Source of the DNA: Methylophilus sp. 42
Lineage (GTDB): Bacteria; Pseudomonadota; Gammaproteobacteria; Burkholderiales; Methylophilaceae
DNA length: 64,000 bases
Direction of reading: 5' to 3'
Assembly: GCF_000384155.1 (NCBI RefSeq)
Contig: NZ_KB913031.1
Span: 1,736,001-1,800,000 of the forward strand
Part shown: positions 3,742 to 56,698 of the stretch, piece by piece
How positions within the stretch are numbered: position 1 is the first letter of the stretch
Layout of the letters: each line of letters starts with the position of its first letter
Position numbers and translations under genes: made by a program
The notes under the pieces: generated by a model
Database searches by the model: none
Told to the model about the DNA's origin: nothing
What the model saw: only the letters and a program-made list of their open reading frames with translations

Positions 3742-3768
3742 TAAAGTTTATTGTGGTGATGCCGTTAA
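3742..3768 (+). promoter_or_regulatory. Sigma-28 (FliA) promoter upstream of the unknown gene at 3816
   Basis: TAAAGTTT (3742-3749), an 11-base spacer, then GCCGTTAA (3761-3768). This matches the enterobacterial FliA consensus TAAAGTTT-N11-GCCGATAA at 15 of 16 positions. It has the same layout as the promoters found here before flgM and flgK. Predicted transcription starts around 3775, about 40 bases before the ATG at 3816. Confidence 0.85.
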
Positions 3769-3815
3769 CAAGATTAGCAGTAATGTATCTGTATTCTTTT
3801 TGACGAGGCATGGCG

Positions 3816-4262
3816 ATGTCAGTTTCCAATATTCAAAGCAATGTCTCAGCCCTGTTAAACAAGGCCTACAACACCGAGACCAACGCAGCGAGCGGCGGCG
3901 ATGCCGTCAGTACGCTTGCCAAAGAAAGCACCACCAACAGTGACAGCGGCACAAACGCCTCGGCCAGTGCGCAAGTGACACTAGGCAGCACCGACACAGC
4001 CCCTGAAACCTATACAGCAAAAGGCTTAATGCAGCAGTTACGCCAATATCAGCTGAGTAATGCATCGCTAATCTTTGGCAATGGCGATGAGTCGAATGAC
4101 GATAGTACGGGCTTGACCAGCTTACCAGGCACATCTTCGAGCAGTGACCTGGAAAGCATGAGCCAGGACTGGGTAAGCACCATCAGCGAAAGTCCTGGTA
4201 AAGCGTCGGTCATGGTGGAAAGCAGTAAAAATAACTCCTTAAATACGATCTTTGGCGGATAA
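3816..4262 (+). CDS. Unknown protein, probable late flagellar gene (sigma-28 dependent)
   Basis: 148 residues from the ATG at 3816, chosen over the ATG at 3810 because GAGG (3805-3808) sits 7 bases ahead of it. I recognise no family. The protein is very rich in Ser, Thr, Asn, Gly and Ala. It has no Cys or His and a single Trp, no signal peptide and no membrane segment. The only clearly ordered part is a short possible helix around GLMQQLRQYQLSNASLIFG (about residues 69-87). It is monocistronic, with its own sigma-28 promoter and a strong terminator. Composition and promoter together suggest a filament-associated, secreted or regulatory flagellar accessory protein, but this is inference. Confidence 0.75.
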   Translation: MSVSNIQSNVSALLNKAYNTETNAASGGDAVSTLAKESTTNSDSGTNASASAQVTLGSTDTAPETYTAKGLMQQLRQYQLSNASLIFGNGDESNDDSTGLTSLPGTSSSSDLESMSQDWVSTISESPGKASVMVESSKNNSLNTIFGG

Positions 4263-4304
4263 ACACCCGCAGATAAGTATTTAGACAGTACCAGCAATCG
4301 CCAT

Positions 4305-4335
4305 AAAAACGCCCGACTTCCGGGCGTTTTTATTT
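4305..4335 (+). terminator. Rho-independent terminator
   Basis: Stem AACGCCCG / CGGGCGTT with a short ACTTC loop, preceded by A residues and followed by a T-rich run (TTTTTATTTTTG). It ends the transcript of the gene at 3816-4262. Confidence 0.9.
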
Positions 4336-4410: not shown

Positions 4411-5148
4411 ATGAAACCAAAAATCTTTATAGGCTCTTCACGCGAGGGTCTGGATATTGCCAATCCCATACACGCCAATTTAACCCGCGATGCCGAATGC
4501 ACGGTGTGGAGCAATGGCGTGTTCCAGATTTCAGGGTCTACCCTCTACAGCCTGATCAACGCCCTGCGCAACTCTGATTTTGGCGTATTTGTATTTAGCC
4601 CGGATGACCTGACAATCATGCGCGGACAGCAAAACCCGGTGGTACGTGACAATGTGATTTTTGAGTTAGGCCTGTTTATCGGCCGCTTGGGCGTTGAACG
4701 CTGTTTCTTTATCACCCCTGACCATGTCGCTGATTTACGGCTACCGACTGACCTGATGGGCATACTGCCCGGGCAATATGAAGCAAACCGGCACGACCAG
4801 AACTGGCTGGCCGCCACCAACCCGGTCTGCATGCAAATCCGCGCCAAGCTGATAGAGCTGAAATCGTTTCAAGATGCCACCGTGAACGCCGCAACGGCGG
4901 TGGACTCAAGCACGAACCATGAAATAAAGCATGCAATATCACATGATCACACGGCAACAGATCAACACTTAGGACTGGAGCCACACGGCAAGGCCTATGC
5001 ACTGACTGGCAATACGCATAAGCATAAAGACGCTATTAAACAAGCCGGGGCCAGCTGGAACAAAGGTTTAAAGAAGTGGATTATTCGCGGTAGCGATAAA
5101 ATCAAGTTTGAACGCCTGATCGCGGACGTGAACAGCAGCACATATTAA
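4411..5148 (+). CDS. TIR-like (CAP12/PycTIR family) predicted nucleotide-binding protein, orphan
   Basis: 245 residues. The ATG follows AGGAG at 4399-4403. Residues about 4-125 form a TIR-like domain of the PF10137 type. FIGSSREGL opens the fold, SDFGVFVFSPDD is the central strand, and RDNVIFELGLFIGRLG carries the conserved glutamate expected at the active site. Members of this family act as NAD-cleaving effectors in anti-phage systems. After a linker, residues about 187-240 form a second small module (KAYALTGNTHKHKDAIK, then GASWNKGLKKWII). It resembles short DUF5710-like modules, but I cannot name it with certainty. No nucleotide cyclase or other defence gene is adjacent. Function as an NADase is inferred from the family. 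Confidence 0.8.
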   Translation: MKPKIFIGSSREGLDIANPIHANLTRDAECTVWSNGVFQISGSTLYSLINALRNSDFGVFVFSPDDLTIMRGQQNPVVRDNVIFELGLFIGRLGVERCFFITPDHVADLRLPTDLMGILPGQYEANRHDQNWLAATNPVCMQIRAKLIELKSFQDATVNAATAVDSSTNHEIKHAISHDHTATDQHLGLEPHGKAYALTGNTHKHKDAIKQAGASWNKGLKKWIIRGSDKIKFERLIADVNSSTY

Positions 5149-47315: not shown

Positions 47316-47792
47316 CTAGACTGAAAAGCCGCTACGACTGCTGTTTGCCCGGTGGGCTTGACCATTTTTGCCATAAAACTGTGGTGCAGAACTCTTACCG
47401 TTCAATGCATCCAGCTTTTCCTGATTGCGCAGGAAGTGCTTGTTAATCAGGATACCGTTCAAGCGATTTAATTCTTTTGCCTGTGTCAGCTCTTGCTGAA
47501 AAGTGACCCATGCACTATCTAATAATTGGCTGGATTGCTTTTGTAACCAGACCGACATGCCCTGCTCATTCGGCTCAAAGCCAGCTGCAGCCAGCGCGTC
47601 ATAGCGTGAATTGGCAGCGGCACCTAGTGCTTGTAGCAGCTCAACCCGCTTGTCTACCATGCGCTCAATCACGTCCAGATCAGCAGTGACCAAGGCCGAC
47701 TGCTCAGACTGCAAATCACTCAATAACTCTGATACCAGCGCGGCGTCTTTCTCAAACGTCACTGGAGAAGATAAATGATTTGCAGTAGTCAT
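47316..47792 (-). CDS. flgN: Flagellar chaperone FlgN
   Basis: 158 residues, alpha-helical, with the FlgN-like N-terminal stretch ELLSDLQSEQSALVTADLDV (about 20-39). It escorts the hook-filament junction proteins FlgK and FlgL to the export gate, and both are encoded 9 kb away in this window. The C-terminal end (SSAPQFYGKNGQAHRAN) is unstructured, the part that binds cargo. The gene starts 5 bp after flgM and shares its promoter. Confidence 0.9.
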   Translation of the reverse strand: MTTANHLSSPVTFEKDAALVSELLSDLQSEQSALVTADLDVIERMVDKRVELLQALGAAANSRYDALAAAGFEPNEQGMSVWLQKQSSQLLDSAWVTFQQELTQAKELNRLNGILINKHFLRNQEKLDALNGKSSAPQFYGKNGQAHRANSSRSGFSV

Positions 47793-48184: not shown

Positions 48185-48211
48185 CTATCGGCATAGTTTA
48201 AGCGAACTTTA
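48185..48211 (-). promoter_or_regulatory. Sigma-28 (FliA) promoter of flgMN
   Basis: Read on the minus strand: TAAAGTTC (48211-48204), 11-base spacer, GCCGATAG (48192-48185). Fourteen of 16 positions match the FliA consensus. Transcription would start about 8 bases downstream, giving a leader of roughly 60 bases before flgM. Confidence 0.9.
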
Positions 48212-56671: not shown

Positions 56672-56698
56672 TAAAGAAACAAAAAAAACAGCCGATAG
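56672..56698 (+). promoter_or_regulatory. Sigma-28 (FliA) promoter of flgKL
   Basis: TAAAGAAA (56672-56679), 11-base spacer, GCCGATAG (56691-56698). It starts 14 bases after the flgJ stop and about 65 bases before the flgK ATG. It marks flgKL as late genes separate from the hook operon. Confidence 0.87.

Follow-up and report, generated by a model that had tools for sequence, protein, structure and literature searches.

Within a 64-kb stretch of the Methylophilus sp. 42 genome (the window, by which we mean the whole stretch analysed), we identified a small orphan gene that very likely belongs to the FliA (sigma-28) regulon and is transcribed on its own. Taking sequence, conservation and genomic context together, we give an even chance to the reading that its product is an accessory FliA-driven protein that serves the flagellar export system and filament as a substrate or companion. 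The initial annotation had described a FliA-type box ahead of a 148-residue ORF, a product without cysteine or histidine, a terminator behind the gene and a distance of about 43 kb from the flagellar cluster, and the sequence bore out each of these points, with the box exact at 3742–3768, the ORF at 3816–4262, a 13-pair hairpin at 4303–4333 and flgN at 47316 (Table 1). The box, TAAAGTTT-N11-GCCGTTAA, starts 74 nt 5′ of the ORF and is the single exact match in the window, against 0 in 100 dinucleotide shuffles; with up to three mismatches allowed, four window matches were recovered against a shuffle mean of 0.48. The ORF can be read from 3810 (3810–4262, 150 codons) or from 3816 (148 codons), and the ATG at 3816 is the better start because the GAGG at 3805–3808 fits it and most homologs have a start only there. 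The encoded protein is small, acidic and Ser/Thr-rich, and its conserved parts comprise an N-terminal helix-like segment, a central VTLG...YTAxGLLQQ and a C-terminal DWxxxIxxNPxxA...SLxTI.

Table 1. Features of the orphan gene and the FliA-type boxes used for comparison (window coordinates).
Feature	Position	Strand	Remark
FliA (sigma-28) type −35 element, TAAAGTTT	3742..3749	+	exact; identical in 13/14 genus carriers
FliA type −10 element, GCCGTTAA, 11-nt spacer	3761..3768	+	exact; identical in 12/14 genus carriers, altered in G009 and G017
Likely ribosome-binding site, GAGG	3805..3808	+	7 nt 5′ of ATG at 3816
ORF, 148 aa, Ser/Thr-rich (31%), Cys/His-free, unnamed family	3816..4262	+	alternative in-frame ATG at 3810
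Intrinsic terminator hairpin, 13 pairs, T-rich tail	4303..4333	+	sequence
Comparison: FliA box of flgM, TAAAGTTC-N11-GCCGATAG	48185..48211	-	
Comparison: FliA box before flgA, TAAAGTTT-N11-ACCGTTAA	49211..49237	-	
Comparison: FliA-like box of flgK, TAAAGAAA-N11-GCCGATAG	56672..56698	+	read from sequence

The same promoter form had been reported ahead of flgM and flgK in the window; this is right, with the qualification that the −35 element of flgK is weaker. The strict pattern TAAAGTTTN{9,13}GCCGNTAA has only three matches in the whole 2.97 Mb genome, against 0 for the reversed control, and the flagellin box of this genome, TAAAGATT-N11-GTCGTAAA, is farther from consensus than the box at 3742–3768. 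The two other strict matches, one with a 12-nt spacer, lie at C1:795954 (−) and C1:2540300 (+) of this genome (G000; L022 and L024), ahead of genes for a PAS/GAF-domain protein and a GGDEF-EAL protein, both probable further FliA targets. Genes of this sort are commonly controlled by FliA, examples from E. coli being yhjH and ycgR (PMC4183435).

Non-conservation of the ORF or of the promoter in relatives had been set as a possible refutation, and we found both conserved within Methylophilus. The gene is present in 15 of 187 family genomes, namely 14 of the 22 of Methylophilus and one of another genus (G022), and M. methylotrophus DSM 46235 also carries it. Twelve of the 14 genus carriers agree at every one of the 16 box bases, with spacer and flanks about 70% conserved. 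Across the nine non-redundant carriers other than G009 and G017, conservation reaches 1.00 in the box, 0.68 in the spacer, 0.70 in the 30 bases upstream and 0.79 downstream; with these two included (n = 11), the −35 and −10 elements score 0.99 and 0.89. FliA control is strongly supported because the promoter is conserved beyond its surroundings, and on these alignments we hold it to be highly probable. The stretch just 3′ of the −10 element (window 3769–3800 and its homologs; CAAGAT..G.GGTAATGTA) is itself fairly conserved (0.79). In both G009 and G017 the −10 element is broken, and G017 has one changed −35 base as well; their flagellin boxes keep the form seen in relatives. The protein frame of G017 is intact despite the lost −10 element, and the G009 protein has a shortened, deviating C-terminus. 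Nei–Gojobori dN/dS, computed for nine pairs, was 0.06–0.11 in five and 0.24 in one pair with G009, the other three having saturated dS and no ratio, with dS near saturation throughout. Together, these sequence comparisons support a real gene under purifying selection.

In 13 of the 14 genus carriers, the gene is divergent from pabC. In the remaining one, G013, the gene and its exact box lie close to an smc-like gene, some 18 kb away from fliA, and in G022 the gene occupies a third site, where TAAAGATT-N12-GCCGTTAG begins 76 nt before a GTG start. A box thus accompanies the gene at both sites, the G022 copy having altered bases and a spacer longer by one base. Eight of the 22 genus genomes lack the gene, four of them being less than 90% complete, and all eight keep FliA above its curated cut-off; no box was found upstream of pabC in the six of these eight with a pabC match. 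By eye, the pabC neighbor in these six genomes looks like fabF, which Pfam confirms for G011. Since every gene-less genus genome keeps FliA, we consider the gene accessory rather than a core flagellar gene, and from this distribution it looks dispensable for the flagellar regulon. On its 3′ side in the window, a CAP12/Pycsar-type TIR protein (4411–5148, +; PF10137, 8e-32) is encoded, and a TIR protein follows the ORF in five of the 14 listed loci, as judged by N-terminal sequence; the stretch beyond the ORF is therefore variable.

The composition of the product was compared with that of other proteins of the window in a table of cysteine content and N-termini from which the flgM and flgA rows were left out. 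The exported FlgD, E, F, G, J, K and L all lack cysteine, and the nine neighboring non-flagellar proteins examined each have at least one (one in mltG and tmk, two to six in the other seven). Cysteine absence is nonetheless not specific to exported proteins, because FlgN, a cytoplasmic chaperone encoded in the window, is also free of it. The N-terminus bears no significant likeness to that of flagellin (P 0.154, 5000 column permutations); for early export subunits, a gate recognition motif (GRM) is described in PMC8983047. An AlphaFold2 model built from five close sequences reached a mean pLDDT of 43.7, a value that cannot tell disorder from lack of data, and placed low-confidence helices at residues 4–23, 68–82 and 109–125. 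Judging from composition and this shallow, low-confidence model, the product is probably disordered.

That no family could be recognized for the protein was confirmed on a broader basis. The window protein had no match in Pfam and NCBIfam, or only matches far below curated cut-offs, and the same held for four members of the f27 group described below (Pfam and NCBIfam) and for five further members (Pfam); ten members gave no Pfam match over cut-off, and PHROGs searches with 15 members and a profile search of the PDB returned nothing of note. FlgM (PF04316) is alike in being small, FliA-driven and in having a VTLS/VTLG-like stretch, but its profile score lies within the shuffle range (hhalign 13.8, with 20 shuffles reaching up to 15.9), PF04316 was not among the matches of the ten members and the genome has its own flgM; we therefore rejected this identity. 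Flagellin and the hook-associated axial proteins share the lack of cysteine, the Ser/Thr/Asn-rich composition and the late promoter, but Pfam searches of the window protein and of the ten members found no Flagellin_N/C or other flagellar domain. Also rejected was FlxA (PF14282), which was absent from the matches of the ten members and gave an hhalign E of 0.23 over seven columns and no BLASTP alignment. In the open-access literature searched, we found no paper on the gene, and the text of a comparative genomics study of Methylophilus (PMC8399692) has nothing on flagella or motility.

The initial annotation had tentatively placed the gene as a factor of Methylophilaceae, a restriction that profile searches against shuffled controls did not uphold, as weaker relatives occur in other Burkholderiales families. 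A profile search of 399 genomes of the order gave borderline matches at first, one of which led to a group in another family (f27), where 17 of 61 genomes had a match with E no higher than 0.01, the one in G578 being doubtful (681-codon frame, E 0.005); the weak first-search matches in G439, G504, G308 and G560 have long or unlike frames. Aligned with hhalign, the Methylophilaceae and f27 groups scored 48.6; column shuffling gave at most 19.7 in 40 trials, and reversal gave 12.9. A combined profile matched 13 of the 399 genomes at E up to 0.05, including five known carriers, the new matches G264, G360, G303 and G475 (E 3e-15 to 3e-5) and G391 (0.03), and the weak matches G346, G378 and G386 (0.009–0.04). 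The five new members scored 14.6–79.6 bits with the f27 profile and 12.5–18.4 bits with the Methylophilaceae profile, for which the maxima among 1000 shuffled decoys were 6.6 and 10.2 bits. G046 and G506 were listed as well. The shared core consists of (V/A)xLG...Y.A.GL in mid-protein and a proline near the C-terminus, mostly preceded by tryptophan. Cysteine is absent from all 38 family rows (33/33 and 5/5; the 33 count two genes twice and contain some fragments), and a single histidine occurs in one row (G303). An unnamed family thus appears to extend, sparsely, to several Burkholderiales families. Across the class, a search of 369 genomes turned up the gene in the window's own genome alone, and neither plasmids, searched by tblastn with two distant members as queries, nor the viral contigs searched yielded a relative.

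The description of the gene as isolated holds in Methylophilus and fails in G264, where the member (L162 10056–10520) is followed 45 nt downstream, on the same strand, by a gene for a 265-aa flagellin-domain protein (Pfam Flagellin_N 1.3e-29, Flagellin_C 5.3e-15), a pairing seen in this one genome and spotted post hoc; two further flagellin-domain genes lie elsewhere in that genome. Flagellin-domain genes are present in all seven distant carriers tested, and FlgM in all 15 f27 carriers tested of the 17 genomes with a match, both counts covering carriers only and giving a weak flagellar link. The neighbors of distant members are mostly non-flagellar by eye (ylqF-like, yqgF-like and others). GGDEF-domain genes occur within about two genes of the members in G022 (L131), G360 (L163 8533–10029) and G303 (L164 9113–10375), an observation made post hoc that may be chance, with a Pfam check on the G360 gene only.

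Whether homologs always carry a FliA promoter was also checked: the 12 genus carriers with identical boxes, the relocated G013 among them, have one, G022 has an altered one, G009 and G017 have a broken −10 element, and most distant members show no clear box. A TCAAG-type box precedes flgM in 13 of the 14 f27 loci read. Scanned for this form, the 15 f27 members include one (G608) with two core mismatches, as in 3 of 300 random windows, eight with three (39 of 300 random windows were as good or better) and six with four or five. Seven of the eight three-mismatch members have GCCGATAC at the same place, 12 nt after TTGAG, which may constitute a weak FliA-like promoter, and TTGAG(T/C)-N17-GATACT could also be read as a sigma-70 type. 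Many members of one f27 genus (L092–L102) share, about 60–110 nt 5′ of the start, a stretch like TTGTTTTGTTAGnAGCnnTTAA, which suggests a further regulator. Among the other distant members, the core of G391, TAAAGCCG-N11-GCCGATAT, deviates at a single base, a fit reached by 0 of 200 random windows, and G264, G360, G303 and G475 have three or four core mismatches, the same as random windows. The corresponding null for Methylophilus was set aside, 3 of its 400 windows having one mismatch and possibly being true boxes.

Late flagellar genes of class 3 are switched on by FliA once assembly of the hook-basal body has finished and FlgM has left the cell. Under our preferred reading, the gene would stay silent until that point, its product would then be made together with flagellin and exported late through the flagellar apparatus, and the exported protein would modulate or decorate the filament or be released. 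A flagellum-linked role of the product we regard as slightly favored, and its export, suggested by the timing, the cysteine-free Ser/Thr-rich composition and the flagellin neighbor in G264, as just short of an even prospect. A more detailed scenario is tentative and, as a whole, rather unlikely: an unnamed, cysteine-free, disordered family, sparse in several Burkholderiales families, would leave the cell through the flagellum and work on or within the filament; in one lineage its member would have a short accessory flagellin as partner, and in Methylophilus it would have gained tight FliA control. Against a core flagellar role stand the eight FliA-keeping genus genomes without the gene, the two carriers that lost the −10 element and the lack of a clear box in most of the distant members.

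The same observations bear on other explanations. A non-flagellar function, linked to the surface, biofilm or c-di-GMP and merely timed by FliA with motility, as for modA, ves and flxA of E. coli, is unlikely though worth weighing, as most distant relatives miss a clear FliA box and adjoin genes that look non-flagellar by eye, GGDEF genes lie near the members in G022, G360 and G303 (Pfam-checked in G360), and PMC4183435 describes non-flagellar FliA targets in E. coli; the flagellin neighbor in G264 and a cysteine-free composition as in exported axial proteins count against it. Of lower probability again, and doubtful, is a FliA-driven regulator or chaperone that stays in the cytoplasm and acts in late flagellar assembly or motor function, in a FlgM-, FliT- or YcgR-like role, without ever being exported. 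Such a role would suit the FliA box, the small acidic protein, two conserved segments that could bind a partner and the equally cysteine-free chaperone FlgN, but FlgM homology is excluded by the hhalign comparison above, no known regulator or chaperone family matched, and the eight gene-less genus genomes that keep FliA speak against a core role. That the ORF is spurious and lies behind a chance promoter has a negligible probability: low-complexity composition and nothing else favors it, whereas dN/dS is well below 1 in the six of nine pairs where it is measurable, the box is conserved and homologs in other families score above shuffled controls, so that this reading is, on sequence conservation, already refuted.

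For the preferred reading of an accessory, flagellum-linked protein, the closest working parallel is found in the Fed and FspA proteins of C. jejuni, which are sigma-28-dependent or flagellum-secreted and lie outside the motor. According to PMC5223770, production and secretion of the Feds depend on sigma-28 and FspA secretion needs a minimal flagellum; PMC12445086 states that motility does not require the Cia and Fed proteins. The previously unclassified gene would, by its working, fit this kind, the likeness being one of role alone. C. jejuni secretes these proteins, whereas the product here would be exported under the preferred reading and comes from a methylotroph, so that no host role follows. 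PMC4183435 also reports E. coli FliA targets without an obvious motility role, among them FlxA. Encoded in prophage Qin, this FliA-dependent protein is likewise small and without an obvious flagellar role, but not homologous to ours by profile, hhalign or BLASTP.

Detailed knowledge of FliA regulons is limited to few bacteria, and Campylobacter is the best-known case of non-structural proteins leaving through the flagellum. The conserved, FliA-driven orphan described here has a defined family and, in one relative, a flagellin neighbor, and its host is a methylotroph amenable to laboratory culture. With it, one can ask directly whether accessory proteins are released or displayed via the flagellum in environmental bacteria too.
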